The notes under the pieces were generated by a model. The model was not told where the DNA came from and ran no database searches. It saw nothing but the letters and a program-made list of their open reading frames with translations. A stretch of DNA of 64,000 nucleotides from positions 310,001-374,000 of the forward strand of contig NZ_RJUU01000003.1 in the NCBI RefSeq assembly GCF_003751445.1. The letters are read 5' to 3'. The stretch is from Streptomyces sp. 840.1 (GTDB taxonomy: Bacteria > Actinomycetota > Actinomycetes > Streptomycetales > Streptomycetaceae). Of the stretch, positions 4,688 to 10,915 are shown in pieces. The translations under genes were made by a program, and so were the position numbers. The first letter of the stretch is position 1. Each line of letters opens with the position of its first letter.

Positions 4688-5965
4688 ATGCCCTCATACG
4701 CACCGTTCGCGACCCACGACGCCCCTGCCCGACCGGCCGAACCGGCCACCGCCCATGTCCCTCAGCTCGACGTCGCAGGTGAGCTGCTCGCCCTGCTGCG
4801 CGACACCGGCACCGAACCGCGCCCCGACACACAGCTGGAGGCGCTGACCCTGGCCGTGGCCGCCGACCTGCCGGTGATCCTCTGGGGCGAGCCCGGAATC
4901 GGCAAGACCGCCGCCCTGACCCAGCTCGCCGCGTCCCTGGAGCTGCCGCTGACCACCGTCATCGCCAGCGTGCACGAGCCGTCCGACTTCTCCGGGCTGC
5001 CCATCGTCGGCGACGACCCTGCGGAACAGGGGGTGCCGATGGCCCCGCCGGACTGGGCCGTGCGGCTCGTACGGGCCGGCCGGGGGCTGCTGTTCCTGGA
5101 CGAACTGTCCACCGCGGCCCCGGCCGTGCAGGCCGCCCTGCTCCGCCTCGTGCTCGAACGGCGGATCGGCTCCCTTCGGCTGCCACCCGAGGTACGGATC
5201 GTGGCGGCCGCCAATCCCCGGTCCTCGGCCGCCGACGGCTGGGAGCTGAGCCCGCCCCTGGCCAACCGGTTCGTCCACCTCCAGTGGGCCCACGACCACG
5301 AGGTCGTGGTGCGCGGGCTCGGCGGGACCTGGCCCCGTGCGACGCTGCCCCGGCTCTCCCCCGACGCACTGCCGCAGGCGGTGGAGTTCGCCCGCCGCGC
5401 GGTGTGCGGGCTGCTGTCCGCGCGCCCCGCGCTCGTGCACCGGCTGCCCAGCAACGAGGCCCGCCGGGGCGGCCCTTGGCCCTCGCCTCGGACCTGGGAC
5501 ATGACGCTGTCACTGACCGCCTTCGCGACCGCGGCCGGTTCCTCCCGTGAAGTGCTCTCCGCGCTGGTCCGGGGCACGGTGGGGGACGGCCCGGGGCTGG
5601 AGCTGCTGGCGAGCCTGGACCGGATGGACCTGCCCGACCCCGAACTCCTGCTGGCCGACCCGGCCTCGGCCGTCCTGCCCGAGCGCGGGGACCTGCGTCA
5701 GGCAGCGCTGGACGGCGTGGTGGCCGCTGTCCGCAACCGCCCCGAAAGGCCCCGCTGGGACGCCGCGTGGGAGCTTCTGGTCCGGGCGCTGGAGACCGGG
5801 GCCCCCGATCTGGTGGTCGTCCCCGCGACCACACTCGCCTCGCTGCGCCAGGAGGACTGGGACGTGCCCGCCGCCATCGAGCAGCTGGCCGGGGTCGTAT
5901 CACTGTCCCGCCGCGCGGACCGGGCGGCGGCCCGTACGGCAGCCGCCGCACAGGCCCGCCGATGA
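4688..5965 (+). CDS. MoxR-type AAA+ ATPase
   Basis: A 425-residue cytosolic AAA+ protein. Walker A is GEPGIGKT (residues 67-74), Walker B is LLFLDE (about 133-138), followed by the MoxR-like STAAPAVQAALLRLVLERR stretch, and sensor 1 is the Asn of AAANP (about 175). The start at 4688 has AGGTGAT as ribosome site. MoxR ATPases work with VWA-domain partners as chaperones or metal-cofactor insertases. Its stop codon overlaps the next gene's start by four bases (ATGA, 5962-5965), which indicates translational coupling with the VWA partner. Confidence 0.92.
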   Translation: MPSYAPFATHDAPARPAEPATAHVPQLDVAGELLALLRDTGTEPRPDTQLEALTLAVAADLPVILWGEPGIGKTAALTQLAASLELPLTTVIASVHEPSDFSGLPIVGDDPAEQGVPMAPPDWAVRLVRAGRGLLFLDELSTAAPAVQAALLRLVLERRIGSLRLPPEVRIVAAANPRSSAADGWELSPPLANRFVHLQWAHDHEVVVRGLGGTWPRATLPRLSPDALPQAVEFARRAVCGLLSARPALVHRLPSNEARRGGPWPSPRTWDMTLSLTAFATAAGSSREVLSALVRGTVGDGPGLELLASLDRMDLPDPELLLADPASAVLPERGDLRQAALDGVVAAVRNRPERPRWDAAWELLVRALETGAPDLVVVPATTLASLRQEDWDVPAAIEQLAGVVSLSRRADRAAARTAAAAQARR

Positions 5966-7242
5966 CGGCCGGGACGCAGGAATCGCGCCGGACACCGGCC
6001 GCGCCGCTGCCGCTGGACGTCGACAAGCTCTTCGCCGCCCGGCTGCACGCCGCCCGGGTCCGCCCCTACCTGGCGACGGCGCTGTTCGCGCTGCACACCG
6101 TCGAATCGCGGCGGGTGCCGACGATGGCCGTCGACCGGCACTGGCGGTGCTACGTCTCCCCGGCGTTCGTGGCGGCCACCCCGGTGGAGGAACTGGCCGG
6201 GGTGTGGGTGCACGAGATCTCGCACCTGCTGCGCGACCATCACGGACGCGGTGACCGGGTCGCGCGGGAGCGCGGGCTGACCGGCCCGGGTGAACGTCTG
6301 CGGATGAACATCGCCGCGGACTGCGAGATCAACGACGACGTGTTCGGCGAGGGGCTGGCCCGGCCGGAGGGGGCCGTCGACCCGCGCGGCCTCGGGCTCC
6401 CCGAGGGGGAGCTGATGGAGGACTACCTGCGGCAGTTCCGCCTGGGGCCGCGTACGCAGGACCTCGCCTGGCTGGACTGCGGCAGCGGGGCCGACGGGCT
6501 GGAGAGGGAGTGGGACCTGGGGCCGGAGGGCGCTCACGGCCTGAGTGCCCAGCAACAGGACGCGGTCCGGTTCCGGGTGGCCCAGGGCATCACCGGCCGC
6601 CCGGGAGACGCTCCGCAGGGGTGGCAGCGGTGGGCGGAGGAGGCGTTCCACCCGCCGCAGGCGTGGCGGGAGTTGCTGGGGGCGGCCGTGCGCTCGGCGG
6701 CCTCGGGCCCCGGGACCGGCCAGGACTACACCTACGGCCGGCCGTCCCGCCGTTCGGCCGGGGTGCCCGGCGCCGTGCTGCCGAGCCTCCGCCGCCGGCC
6801 GCCCCGGGTCACCGTGATCATCGACACCTCCGGTTCGGTCAGTGACGCCGAACTGGGCAGCGCGCTCCTGGAGGTCGCCGCCATCTCCCGCTCCGTCGGC
6901 GGCCGCCGGGACCTCGTCAGCGTCCTGTCGTGCGACGCGGCGGCCGGAGTCGCGCACCCGCTGTGCCGCGCCGAGGGCATTGCCCTGATCGGCGGTGGGG
7001 GTACGGACCTGCGTTCGGGTTTCGCCAGGGCGCTGCGGGCCCGGCCCCGTCCTGACGTCGTGGTGGTCCTCACGGACGGGCAGACGCCGTGGCCCGCGGC
7101 GCGGCCGGCATGCAGGACGGTGGTGGGCCTGTTTCCCCGGCGCCACTCGCGCGGGTCGTGGAGCGAGGACGATCCCGACTACGTGCCGGACTCGCCGCCC
7201 GCGTGGGCGCGCACGGTCGAGATCGGCTCGTCCTGCGGGTAG
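5962..7242 (+). CDS. Putative metallopeptidase plus VWA-like domain protein (DUF2201 type)
   Basis: A 426-residue protein. The N-terminal part has a zinc-metallopeptidase motif HEISH (residues 84-88) followed by NIAADCEIND, the arrangement of the DUF2201 N-terminal domain. The C-terminal part is a VWA-like domain with the MIDAS motif DTSGS (288-292), a later GGGGTDLR supplying the MIDAS threonine, and VVVVLTDG. It is translationally coupled to the MoxR ATPase upstream. Whether the HExxH site is an active peptidase is not known for this family. Together the two genes form the classic MoxR/VWA pair. A long hairpin terminates the operon at its stop codon. Confidence 0.92.
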   Translation: MTAGTQESRRTPAAPLPLDVDKLFAARLHAARVRPYLATALFALHTVESRRVPTMAVDRHWRCYVSPAFVAATPVEELAGVWVHEISHLLRDHHGRGDRVARERGLTGPGERLRMNIAADCEINDDVFGEGLARPEGAVDPRGLGLPEGELMEDYLRQFRLGPRTQDLAWLDCGSGADGLEREWDLGPEGAHGLSAQQQDAVRFRVAQGITGRPGDAPQGWQRWAEEAFHPPQAWRELLGAAVRSAASGPGTGQDYTYGRPSRRSAGVPGAVLPSLRRRPPRVTVIIDTSGSVSDAELGSALLEVAAISRSVGGRRDLVSVLSCDAAAGVAHPLCRAEGIALIGGGGTDLRSGFARALRARPRPDVVVVLTDGQTPWPAARPACRTVVGLFPRRHSRGSWSEDDPDYVPDSPPAWARTVEIGSSCG

Positions 7243-7299
7243 GGCCTGTCTTCGAACTGCCGTCGTCGCCCGGCAGACGGCAGTTCGAAGACAGGTCCT
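7241..7299 (+). terminator. Long near-perfect hairpin after the MoxR/VWA operon
   Basis: Positions 7245-7264 and 7276-7295 are perfect 20-bp complementary arms around an 11-nt loop. Counting one G-U pair, the stem extends to 24 bp (7241-7264 with 7276-7299) and overlaps the VWA stop codon. There is no U-run, as is usual for Streptomyces terminators. A stem of this length is unusual; it may also be a relic of a mobile-element end. Confidence 0.75.
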
Positions 7300-7400
7300 G
7301 GGGCCTGTCCGGTGGGCCCGTCCGGCGTTGCCCGCAGGGCCCGGGGCGGCCCGCCTGCTAATGTGGAGACGCTGTTCAGCGTGTACGGAGGAGATCAGAC

Positions 7401-7430
7401 ATGGCGGGTGACGACGACATCTCCGGGTGA
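7401..7430 (+). CDS. Nine-residue leader peptide upstream of ABC-F gene
   Basis: ATG at 7401 to TGA at 7428-7430 encodes MAGDDDISG. It has a strong ribosome site (GGAGGAG, 7387-7393) at good spacing, which nothing else nearby would use. It lies 130 bp before the ABC-F start at 7560. Short leader ORFs upstream of antibiotic-resistance ABC-F genes act in ribosome-mediated attenuation, where a drug-stalled ribosome changes RNA folding. Here the stop codon lies inside a hairpin. Translation of the peptide is inferred. Confidence 0.6.
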   Translation: MAGDDDISG

Positions 7431-7439
7431 TACCCGGAG
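7421..7439 (+). promoter_or_regulatory. Hairpin overlapping the leader ORF stop codon
   Basis: CTCCGGGT (7421-7428), loop GAT, and ACCCGGAG (7432-7439) form a perfect 8-bp GC-rich stem. The TGA of the leader peptide spans the last stem base and the loop. A ribosome at the end of the leader would melt this stem, a layout expected for an attenuator or translational switch controlling the ABC-F gene. Confidence 0.55.
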
Positions 7440-7559
7440 CTGACCGGCCACCGGCGGGCGCCCAGGAGCGCAGCCGATGTGGCCATGTCGTTGTTCCCTC
7501 TGTCCATATCCCCGGGGCCGCACTGCGTGCCGTCCCGGATCACACGCGAGGTCCCCCGC

Positions 7560-9194
7560 ATGTCCGACGCATCCGTCATCTGCTCCGGCCTGTCCTTCTC
7601 CTGGCCCGACGACACCCCCGTCTTCCATGACCTGTCCTTCGCCATGGGGAGCGGCCGTACGGGTCTCGTCGCCCCCAACGGGTCAGGCAAGAGCACTCTG
7701 CTCAAGCTGATCGCCGGTGAGCTCCGGCCCGCCTCGGGCACCGTCTCGGTTGGCGGCACGCTGGGCTATCTGCCGCAGAGCCTTCCGCTGACCGGCGACC
7801 TGACGGTGGCCGAGGTCCTGGGGGTCGACGCGGTGATCCGCGCCCTGGACGCCGTCGAGTCCGGCGATGTCGGCGAGGACCACTTCGCGGTCATCGGTGA
7901 CGACTGGGACATCGAGGAGCGCACCCGCGCGCAACTGGACCGGCTCGGCCTGACCGGCATCGCCCTCGACCGGAGCACCGGCACGCTCAGCGGCGGACAG
8001 GTCGTCTCGCTCGGTCTGGCGGCCCAGTTGCTGAAGCGGCCCGATGTGCTGCTGCTCGACGAGCCGACCAACAACCTGGACCTGGCAGCCCGGCACTCGC
8101 TCCATGACGCGCTCGACGCGTGGGGCGGCACCCTGCTGCTCGTCAGCCACGACCGTGCGCTCCTCGGCCGCATGGACCGTATCGCCGAACTCGGCAGCGA
8201 CGAACTGCGCCTCTACGGAGGGAACTTCGCCGCCTATGAGGAAGCCGTCCGGGCCGAGCAGGAGGTTGCCGAGAAGAACGTGCGCAACGCCGAACAGGAA
8301 CTGAAGCGGGAGAAGCGGGAGTTGCAGCAGGCCCGCGAGCGCGCCGAGCGCCGGGCGAGCAACGCCGCGCGCAATCTCAAGAGCGCCGGCCTTCCGCGCA
8401 TCTTCGCCGGGAACATGAAGCGGGGCGCCCAGGAGTCCGCGGGCCGGGCCGGTCAGACCCATGCCGCCCGGGTGGGTGAGGCCAGGGCCCGGCTGGACGA
8501 GGCCGGCCGGGCGGTGCGCGACGAGCAGCGCATCACCCTCGAACTCCCGGACACCGTCGTCCCCGCCGGACGTACCGTCCTGCTCGCCGAGCGGGTACGG
8601 GTACGCCTCGGTGGTAGGGAGCAGTTCGCCGGTGAGGGCGTCGGTCTGACGATCCGCGGCCCCGAGCGCATCGCGCTCACGGGCGCCAACGGTGCAGGGA
8701 AGAGCACCCTGTTGCGGCTGATCAACGGCGAACTCCGGCCGGAGGGCGGCGAGATCAGGCGGCTGGACGGGCGGATCGCCTATCTGTCGCAGCGGCTCGA
8801 CCTGCTCGACCTCGACCGTACGGTGGCGGAGAACTTCGCCGAGTCCGCCCCGCACCGGCCGGAGGCGGAGCGGATGAACCTGCTCGCGCGCTTCCTCTTC
8901 CGGGGCGACAGCGCCCACCTGCCGGTCGGGCTGCTGTCCGGTGGCGAGCGCCTGCGGGCGACCCTGGCCTGCGTGCTGTGCGCCGAACCGGCCCCGCAGC
9001 TGCTGCTCCTGGACGAGCCGACCAACAACCTCGACCTGACGAGCGCGGATCAGCTGGAGGGCGCGCTGAGCTCGTACCGGGGAGCGTTCGTGGTCGTCAG
9101 TCACGACGAGTCCTTCCTCGGCAGGATCGGCGTGGACCGGTGGCTGAGGCTGGCGGACGGCGAGCTGGTGGAGACCGGGGCTCCGCAGATGTGA
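7560..9194 (+). CDS. ABC-F protein, candidate antibiotic-resistance type
   Basis: A 544-residue soluble protein with two ABC domains and no membrane segment. Domain 1 has Walker [10 protein letters not shown], signature [10 protein letters not shown] and DEPTNNLD. Domain 2 has [18 protein letters not shown] and DEPTNNLD. A charged helical linker of about 100 residues, rich in Glu/Arg/Lys, separates them; in ABC-F factors this element enters the ribosomal E site. The ATG at 7560 is preferred over an in-frame upstream ATG at 7479 because a GAGG ribosome site precedes it and the domain begins at once. The leader ORF and hairpin upstream suggest inducible ribosome protection against an antibiotic. 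Which drug is unknown. Confidence 0.9.
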
Positions 9195-9274: not shown

Positions 9275-10915
9275 ATGCCCGCAACCGCACTGCTCGCACA
9301 CGACATCGTCCGCACCCTCGGCACCAAGCGCGTACTCGACGGGGTGTCCCTCACCGCCGCGCCCGGCCACCGCATCGGCCTGATCGGTGAGAACGGTGTC
9401 GGCAAGTCGACTCTGCTGCGCCTGCTCGCCGGTACGGACGAGCCCGACGGCGGCAGCGTCACCAGGCCCGCCGACGTGGGCTTCCTGCACCAGGAGATGG
9501 TGTTCGACGCCGCGGCGACAATCGCCGACGTGCTGGACGACGCGCTGCGCGAGGCCCGGGAGGACCTCGCGGCCATCGACCGGCTCACCGAGGAGCTGGC
9601 CCGCACCCCGCAGGACTCCCCCGGTTACGCCGGACTGCTGGCGGCGTACGGCCACCGGCTCGAACTGGCCGAGGAGCGCCAGACCTGGGACGCCGACCGG
9701 CGCGCCGCCGTCCTGCTCACCGGGCTCGGACTCGCGGCCCTGCCGTACGGGCGGACGCTCGGCTCGCTCTCCGGCGGGCAGCGCGGCCGGCTGTCACTGG
9801 CCGCGCTGCTGGTGCGGCGGCCCTCGGCCCTCCTGCTGGACGAGCCGACCAACCACCTCGACGACGAGGCCGCCGCCTTCGTCGAGGAGCAGCTGCGCGG
9901 GATGCCGGGCCCGGTCGTGATCGCCAGTCACGACCGGGCCTTCCTCGACGCGGTCTGCACCGACCTGATCGACCTGGATCCGGCCGTCGAGGGCCCCGTG
10001 CGCTACGGCGGTGGCTACAGCGCCTACCTGGCAGTGAAGCGGGCGGAGCGGGTGCGCTGGGAACGGCAGTACGCCGAGGAGCGGGAGGAGGCCGAGGCGC
10101 TGCGCCGCTCGGCCGATGTGACGGCGCGGCAGGTCGCGCCGGACCGGGGTCCGCGCGACAGCGAGAAGATGGGGTACGGCCTGCGGGCGGGCCGGGTGCA
10201 GAGCCAGATCGCCCGCCGGGTCCGCAACGCCTCGCGCCGGCTGGCGGAGCTGGAGCGGCGGCGGACCGGCGAACCTCCGCAGCCGTTGCGGTTCCGGCAC
10301 TCGGGGCACTCGGGGCTCGCGGGAGCGTCGCCCGAGGGCACCCTCGTGTCCCTGCGCGGGGTGCGCGTGCCGGGACGCCTGGCCGTCGGCCGGCTCGACG
10401 TGGCGGCGGCCGAACGGCTCCTGGTCACGGGCGGCAACGGCGCGGGGAAGTCGACGCTGCTCGCCGTGCTCGCGGGGCGTCTTGCCCCGGAGGGCGAGGT
10501 GACCAGGCGCCCGGGGCTGACGGTCGGGCTGCTCGCGCAGGACACCCGGTTCGCGCGGCCGGACCGTACCGTCCGTGACACCTACGAGCGCGCGCTGGGT
10601 GCCGACCGGGCCGAGGCGGTGCCGCTGACCTCACTCGGCCTGATGCACGAGGCAGACCTGGACAAGCAGGTGGGGCGGCTGTCGGCCGGCCAGCGGCGCA
10701 GGCTCGCGCTGGCCCTGCTGACGGCCCGGCCTCCGCAGCTCCTGCTGCTCGACGAGCCCACCAACCACCTGTCCCCCCGGCTCTGCGACGAGCTGGAGGA
10801 GGCGCTCGGACCGGGGCCCGGCGCCGTCGTGGTGGCCAGCCACGACCGCTGGCTGCGCGAGCGGTGGCAGGGCCGAGGCATCCGGCTTCACCCGGAGCCG
10901 GGGGCCGTCGGATAG
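9275..10915 (+). CDS. Second ABC-F protein
   Basis: A 546-residue tandem ABC ATPase. Domain 1 has Walker A GENGVGKST, signature LSGGQRGRLSL and DEPTNHLDD. Domain 2 has GGNGAGKST, signature LSAGQRRRLAL and DEPTNHLS. The linker includes a long Arg/Glu helix and is distinct from that of the preceding ABC-F protein, so the two are not a recent duplication. ATG 9275 has GGGAGAGG as ribosome site. The gap to the first ABC-F gene is 80 bp, so cotranscription is possible. The second signature has Ala in place of Gly (LSAGQ), a tolerated variation. Function is ribosome-associated translation control or antibiotic protection. Its 3' end overlaps the convergent XRE gene by 28 bp. Confidence 0.9.
   Translation: MPATALLAHDIVRTLGTKRVLDGVSLTAAPGHRIGLIGENGVGKSTLLRLLAGTDEPDGGSVTRPADVGFLHQEMVFDAAATIADVLDDALREAREDLAAIDRLTEELARTPQDSPGYAGLLAAYGHRLELAEERQTWDADRRAAVLLTGLGLAALPYGRTLGSLSGGQRGRLSLAALLVRRPSALLLDEPTNHLDDEAAAFVEEQLRGMPGPVVIASHDRAFLDAVCTDLIDLDPAVEGPVRYGGGYSAYLAVKRAERVRWERQYAEEREEAEALRRSADVTARQVAPDRGPRDSEKMGYGLRAGRVQSQIARRVRNASRRLAELERRRTGEPPQPLRFRHSGHSGLAGASPEGTLVSLRGVRVPGRLAVGRLDVAAAERLLVTGGNGAGKSTLLAVLAGRLAPEGEVTRRPGLTVGLLAQDTRFARPDRTVRDTYERALGADRAEAVPLTSLGLMHEADLDKQVGRLSAGQRRRLALALLTARPPQLLLLDEPTNHLSPRLCDELEEALGPGPGAVVVASHDRWLRERWQGRGIRLHPEPGAVG

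Follow-up and report, generated by a model that had tools for sequence, protein, structure and literature searches.

The DNA analysed here (the window) is a stretch of 64,000 nucleotides from Streptomyces sp. 840.1. Two ABC-F genes follow one another on its forward strand, and they are preceded by a nine-codon leader open reading frame (ORF) and several RNA elements. The features of the locus are the following.

7359..7364, + strand: TAATGT, a -10-like box of the form TANNNT, which is conserved in position; the predicted transcription start is ~7371 and the predicted 5'UTR ~189 nt
7387..7393, + strand: Shine-Dalgarno (SD) sequence GGAGGAG of the leader, read from the sequence
7401..7430, + strand: leader ORF MAGDDDISG and stop, read from the sequence; the orthologous tiaAL (MVGDDDISG) is published
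7406..7420, + strand: predicted 5' strand of helix P1, inside leader codons 2-7, with the core ACGAC at 7414-7418 (folding, RNAalifold, complementarity)
7421..7439, + strand: P2, the stop-codon hairpin of 8 bp (sequence, fold, alignments, RNAalifold)
7446..7484, + strand: predicted hairpin P3, GGCCACC...GTGGCC, with the most two-sided changes of all helices (fold, alignments)
7485..7498, + strand: predicted 3' strand of P1, the anti-leader ATGTCGTTGTTCCC, with the core GTCGT at 7487-7491 (fold, complementarity)
7499..7510, + strand: pyrimidine tract that follows P1, enriched in U among homologues of the same genus and weak in the window
7548..7551, + strand: SD sequence GAGG of the first ABC-F gene, read from the sequence
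7560..9194, + strand: TiaA-type (ARE5-like) ABC-F ribosome-protection gene, 544 aa (profiles, homologues, tree)
9275..10915, + strand: second ABC-F gene, 546 aa, probable second gene of an operon (profiles, neighbourhood comparison)

Upstream of the ABC-F genes, positions 4688-7242 hold an AAA ATPase (AAA_5) gene and then a DUF2201 metallopeptidase/VWA-like gene, a pair in the MoxR-VWA style. A 24-nt inverted repeat (7241-7299, 96% complementary, 11-nt loop) lies directly at the upstream gene's stop codon and is probably the terminator of that gene; the 18-base core of the repeat was found within the genome only at 7241-7299, once per arm. A promoter and terminator scan of 7200-7600 gave no match, its terminator part covering short-loop hairpins only.

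The first ABC-F protein scored 372.1 bits with NF000355 (ribosomal protection-like ABC-F), which was the best of all models and just under the cut-off of 380. Most of the named proteins that come closest to it are from Streptomyces. In a quick tree the protein was placed in the leader-carrying clade (SH-aLRT 98). Because it lies inside the single clade that carries the leader, the gene is probably TiaA-type. It had been taken from the sequence for an undescribed ribosome-protection factor, a view that is not upheld, since tiaA is published (PMC12421871).

The leader ORF (7401-7430, forward strand) reads ATG GCG GGT GAC GAC GAC ATC TCC GGG TGA. The sequence-only reading had placed a nine-codon ORF with a strong ribosome site at 7387-7430; the ORF is real, and 7387 is where the SD sequence begins rather than the ORF. 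The distance of about 130 bp that it gave to the ABC-F gene is borne out, the ATG at 7560 lying 129 nt after the leader stop codon. The leader was compared across 81 loci, namely the RNA-model matches that lie before a leader (7 of the 88 model matches do not and were dropped; L007 and L009 have the leader but no model match, and so stand outside the 81). In 77 of the 81 loci, a TANNNT box begins at a distance of 25-65 nt before the leader start; the frequency in random 46-nt stretches from the same loci is 2.4%. The start codons, under the start choice used, are GTG in 44 loci, ATG in 36 and CTG in one. The Ser codon is TCC in 73 of the 81 leaders and the Gly codon is GGG in 72; whereas the usage of TCC and GGG in four genes of the window is 0.33 and 0.29. 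With such a bias, the two codons look held by RNA pairing, which suggests that pairing restrains codon choice in the leader.

The three codons preceding the leader Ile are acidic in 78, 75 and 81 of the 81 leaders, respectively, with Leu (4 leaders) or Val (2 leaders) at the middle one. The acidic run and the following ISG-stop might therefore form an arrest or pausing peptide, by which elongation or termination, perhaps ABC-F activity itself, would be sensed; the relief by EttA of stalls at negatively charged residue patterns, treated in the discussion of an mBio 2025 paper (PMC12421871), is in keeping with this. However, stalling was published for the start codon (PMC12421871), and RNA pairing accounts for part of the leader conservation through the TCC/GGG bias. 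Moreover, the middle acidic codon is replaced in the six leaders just mentioned, and the stop codon is shifted in three Nocardia-type leaders. Sensing by the specific peptide is thus considered unlikely. In these three Nocardia-type leaders (L011, L135 and L138) the ORF runs four codons past the usual stop, as ELDISGVTRL or ELDISGATRL, and the P2 hairpin is retained.

The ORF had been said to end inside a perfect 8-bp hairpin at 7421-7439, which the sequence confirms: CTCCGGGT (7421-7428) and ACCCGGAG (7432-7439) pair without a mismatch around the loop GAT, and the leader TGA (7428-7430) shares its first base with the end of the 5' arm and extends into the loop. The region 7398-7500 has a folding energy of -57.2 kcal/mol (200 dinucleotide shuffles, z = -4.19). 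Folded as a single sequence, it gives a three-way junction composed of P1 (7406-7420/7485-7498), P2 and P3 (7446-7484), in which the closing stem P1 is predicted to pair leader codons 5-6 with the downstream anti-leader. Judged by folding and homologue comparison, the junction closed by P1 is conserved, and the stop hairpin forms one of its arms. The hairpin of the sequence-only reading is therefore real, but it would not act alone as the attenuator: it is the P2 arm and is kept when the stop codon moves. The stop hairpin acting alone was ruled out as the attenuator, since L011, L135 and L138 keep it with the stop moved four codons. The distance from P1 to the ABC-F start is as short as 37 nt in L006 and 32 nt in L010 (counted by eye), and therefore little seems to be required beyond P1-P3 and the U tract. 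In full-UTR folds the probability of P1 reaches 0.5 in 36 of 73 loci; these 73 omit 8 of the 81, which have no ABC-F gene or none with an identified start and SD.

The leader is present before all 34 same-genus ABC-F orthologues checked, the window included. An ABC-F with an E-value of 1e-150 or lower is encoded in 143 of 150 same-genus genomes, and 35 have one at 72-100% identity; one of these 35 (G081) is cut by a contig end, and 34 were examined. In an 80-locus homologue set the leader precedes 20 of the 21 clade orthologues, which are 63-80% identical to the window gene; 18 were found by motif, and L010 and L011 are variants. The sequence-only reading had proposed to compare leader and hairpin among orthologues, and in total the leader is kept in 54 of the 55 clade members found by protein search. 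The sole loss on the tree is in L013, which comes from Mycobacterium and belongs to the ABC-F clade but has no leader ORF. The motif search, which would miss a strongly altered leader, found no such leader at the other 59 loci of the 80-locus set, except for one unrelated match (L052). On the quick tree of 82 proteins (L044 and L085 left out), the leader label changes twice, one change being the L013 loss; whereas the mean upon shuffling is 27. By these comparisons the leader is confined to one ABC-F clade.

A covariance model of the leader RNA was run with strict filters against 394 genomes of the class, and 35 matches in 34 genomes were found at E 0.01. The 30 matches of at least 26.1 bits all lie before this ABC-F or, in L128, before its remnant. 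Among the 5 weaker matches, 4 were inspected and have no ABC-F nearby, and the fifth is in G304. The window's own genome has one strong match, the next best being at E 0.53; the 55% identical ABC-F of the same genome (C3:806294, L082) gave no RNA-model match. Rfam covariance models did not match the leader RNA at the gathering threshold, nor at E up to 1. One same-genus genome has a second copy of leader and ABC-F (L151 at G504:C2, 71% identity); its leader reads VIAGDDDITG and is not matched by an anti-leader after P3.

Short ORFs and GC hairpins are frequent in GC-rich DNA, and the leader and its hairpin might be a chance combination of this kind, without function. The probability of this is close to nil: the leader is present in nearly the whole clade and was not found by motif at the other 59 loci searched, covariation is seen in the helices, and translation of the leader has been demonstrated in the S. 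coelicolor orthologue (PMC12421871).

The covariation was examined in three alignments. The first, made with plain MAFFT, comprises 71 loci and excludes short, P3-lacking or strongly diverged ones; 89.5% of its cells pair, compared with 33-52% in slid controls. Two-sided change is found in 12 pairs (6.4 in shuffles) and in 37 cells (9.4 in shuffles); sliding the structure by +1 likewise gave 12 two-sided pairs, but 20 cells. An alignment of 73 loci, which was fitted by the model and thus leans towards the structure, has 91.6% pairing and 15 two-sided pairs, compared with 5.7 after shuffling and 2-7 after sliding. The third alignment, of 35 of the 40 regular leaders then collected (8 aberrant leaders excluded), has 7 two-sided pairs compared with 2.3 in shuffles, and a slide of -1 gives 9. 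From the 35 sequences RNAalifold recovered P2 and the P1 core ACGAC:GUCGU, of which four pairs are unchanged in 35/35 and the fifth is unchanged in 32, with G-U in the other 3. P3 was recovered by RNAalifold in neither the 35- nor the 71-row alignment, and the gappy 71 rows gave almost no structure (-1.07 kcal/mol). Taking the alignments together, P2 and P3 show covariation. The covariation of P1 is thin because coding restrains its 5' strand, and its support is therefore mainly complementarity.

A 5-nt Watson-Crick complement of the bases preceding the Ile codon was found in 47 of 54 loci that came from the protein search only, compared with 6.5 expected by shuffling; these loci were not chosen by the RNA model, and the scan covered the non-coding sequence as far as the ABC-F SD. 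It is missing in L007, L008, L009, L011, L016, L098 and L154, although L154 does pair if G-U is allowed. Within 20 nt after P3, the complement is present in 62 of the 81 model-matched loci (63 with G-U; 2.1 expected), which had themselves been selected with the structure model. The 18 loci without it, even allowing G-U, are L008, L011, L016, L033, L098, L120, L121, L135, L136, L138, L139, L142-L146, L151 and L155. Eight leaders have a variant five-mer: five are unmatched, and three (L010, L133 and L154, the last with G-U) are matched, having changed on both sides. The changed anti-leaders of these three would serve in 1-3% of ordinary tails. On this evidence, the P1 complementarity includes three compensated lineages. 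In the alignment and pairing counts, related sequences are treated as separate, and their independence is thereby overstated.

Duplex energies of leader and anti-leader showed a modest shift relative to shuffled non-coding parts (80 loci, mean z -1.19; p at most 0.05 in 22 of the 80). Swap tests with six variant leaders were mixed. The own pair beats most ordinary tails in L010, L138 and L011, the advantage of the own tail is smaller in L135 and L154, and in L133 the own tail is no better, as 82% of ordinary tails equal or exceed it. With the tails of L011, L135 and L138, ordinary leaders pair more strongly than the own leaders.

Another long-range helix, in which the region of the leader start would pair with a segment after P1, was also considered and is not claimed. 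Permutations were as good in 123 of 2000 trials for the 45 same-genus loci and in 380 of 2000 for the 36 others; a control segment did better, with 8 of 2000, and the window does not have the helix. A segment like CCCACGUCUGC, with about 10 bp of complementarity to the leader start, follows the U tract in L107, L120, L103 and their relatives; it is limited to a same-genus subgroup and is absent from the window.

The closest known system is tiaA (SCO0636) of S. coelicolor, which is preceded by the leader MVGDDDISG (mBio 2025, PMC12421871). For this orthologue, leader translation, toeprints and drug-induced production were published: ribosomes stall at the start codon of tiaAL in the presence of lincosamides, tiamulin or pristinamycin IIA, and erythromycin causes no start-codon stalling. 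High tiamulin MICs were reported for 3 of 7 strains with tiaA homologues (PMC12421871). The window is similar in its leader (MAGDDDISG), in the length of its 5'UTR (~189 nt predicted, compared with 194 nt in S. coelicolor) and in the ARE5 ABC-F downstream; pairs of ARE5 genes also occur in that paper, and the genome of the window has its second, 55% identical ABC-F at C3:806294. The two differ in that the available text of PMC12421871, whose main text does not contain the word "operon", does not speak of another ABC-F behind tiaA, whereas the window has one; and the leader stem here was derived by comparison of many loci. Literature was searched for the leader, gene tags, tandem ABC-F genes and the three-way junction, outside subscription papers, preprints and supplements: PMC12421871 alone was found for the leader, and no paper for tandem ABC-F genes, where the search was strict and hence weak.

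Other leader-controlled ABC-F genes are also comparable. The lmrC gene of S. lincolnensis is likewise an ARE5 ABC-F under ribosome-mediated attenuation that responds to the same drug classes, and its uORF2 partly overlaps a terminator; it differs in having four putative uORFs, with constitutive expression upon loss of the uORF2 start, and in that premature termination has been mapped experimentally (PMC8546547). For msrD, a ribosome stalled on the leader msrDL obstructs a terminator before the ABC-F gene, and mefA and msrD form an operon of resistance genes; whereas the leader is MYLIFM, erythromycin induces arrest at its stop codon, and the terminator is Rho-independent and was demonstrated by deletion (PMC10314930). 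The genes cplR, vmlR, vmlR2 and lsaA also have very short leaders and respond to drugs that halt early translation, but these leaders are MR[I/M], MIN, MK[L/Q] and MAGN, and the cplR terminator doubles as a stem that hides the SD (PMC10201436).

The system is thus real, conserved and of a published kind; it is not a new kind, because both the leader and the drug response are published for the orthologue. The proposal of an antibiotic-sensing leader attenuator gains support from the MVGDDDISG orthologue and its drug stalling (PMC12421871), and from the conservation of the leader. The leader of the window is very likely a ribosome-mediated attenuator of the tiaA type. According to the proposed mechanism, the mRNA would start near 7371 and the nine-codon leader would be translated. 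In normal translation, the ribosome would complete the leader and depart, and codons 5-6 would pair with the anti-leader, so that P1, P2 and P3 would close into a junction ending in the pyrimidine/U tract, a terminator-like barrier. A lincosamide, streptogramin A or pleuromutilin would stall the ribosome on the leader start codon, where it would cover the 5' strand of P1; P1 would be prevented, and the downstream ABC-F would be expressed. The strand of the barrier stem under the stalled ribosome would be leader codons 5-6, the core of P1, and the loss of P1 in the model follows by construction from a footprint set by hand at the start codon.

Whether P1 acts on transcription or on translation is less certain, and a block to transcription is somewhat favoured. 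For the 45 same-genus loci, U makes up 0.42 of the 8 nt after P1 and 0.21 of the remaining spacer, the first base of the tract being non-C by construction; in the 36 other loci the values are 0.33 and 0.16, and the tract of the window itself is U-poor. Because a U-enriched tract follows P1 in these loci, occlusion of a terminator-like junction by the stalled ribosome is preferred.

It is also possible, if rather less probable, that the leader RNA gates the ribosome site of the ABC-F gene and that a ribosome stalled on the leader frees this site. In S. coelicolor the transcriptional tiaA reporter was constitutive and only the translational one inducible, and a figure legend of the paper leans towards translational control; the authors suspect their strong RBS (PMC12421871). 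A single stem that both terminates and hides the SD is known from cplR of C. difficile (PMC10201436). The sequence-only reading had suggested folding with the leader occupied or free, and in the window the unpaired probability of the ABC-F SD indeed rises from 0.01 to 0.28 with a ribosome on the leader start; but no general opening was found across 73 loci. Upon modelled stalling the SD became more open by more than 0.1 in 12 of them and more closed by more than 0.1 in 31, and the start codon opened in 30 and closed in 26. In free folds the leader SD region pairs with ~20% of the ABC-F RBS bases on average, yet the value is 0.204 for the own RBS and no better than the 0.202 for the RBSs of other loci, though a generic pairing would be masked by shared base composition. 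No conserved pairing partner hiding the ABC-F SD was found in the folds of the 73 loci.

Occlusion of the terminator-like junction would also bear on the second ABC-F gene, which starts 80 nt downstream of the first gene's stop codon. Its nearest model is NF000171 (TlrC/CarA/OleB/SrmB, ARE4), with 461.9 bits, the cut-off of 800 not being reached. Of the 83 loci compared, one is without the first gene, and in 5 the sequence behind it is shorter than 300 nt. A same-strand homologue of the second gene occurs in 30 of the remaining 77; the value for L162 is unreliable, and the flanks are 1.5 kb in some loci. In 25 of the 30, the distance between the genes is 75-95 nt as estimated from alignments. 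The second ABC-F follows the first in 28 of 40 same-genus loci and in 2 of 37 elsewhere, and in these two the genes nearly touch or overlap. The genome G456 (L128/L169) keeps the leader but, by eye, just about 35 codons of the first ABC-F, with the second ABC-F behind this remnant; this is one genome, and an assembly fault is possible. One sensor for two protection genes is suggested because the tandem occurs in 28 of 40 loci and G456 keeps both the leader and the second gene. From gene order, the second ABC-F probably shares the leader control, and in the window genome it would then be expressed together with the first upon stalling.

Taken as a whole, the reading in which one leader senses peptidyl-transferase drugs and drives a two-gene ABC-F operon, with the leader codons as one strand of the barrier and one drug class pre-arming the cell against another, is given a probability of about 0.45. 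What is new here is a conserved structure that names the bases expected to pair, which bears on the question of transcription versus translation in tiaA, and a likely common drug sensor for two ribosome-protection genes. If the two-gene reading is true, the TiaA-type factor would cover lincosamides, streptogramin A and pleuromutilins, and the second ABC-F would come from the macrolide-protecting TlrC/OleB side. Through such a shared sensor, exposure to one drug class would ready the cells for another.
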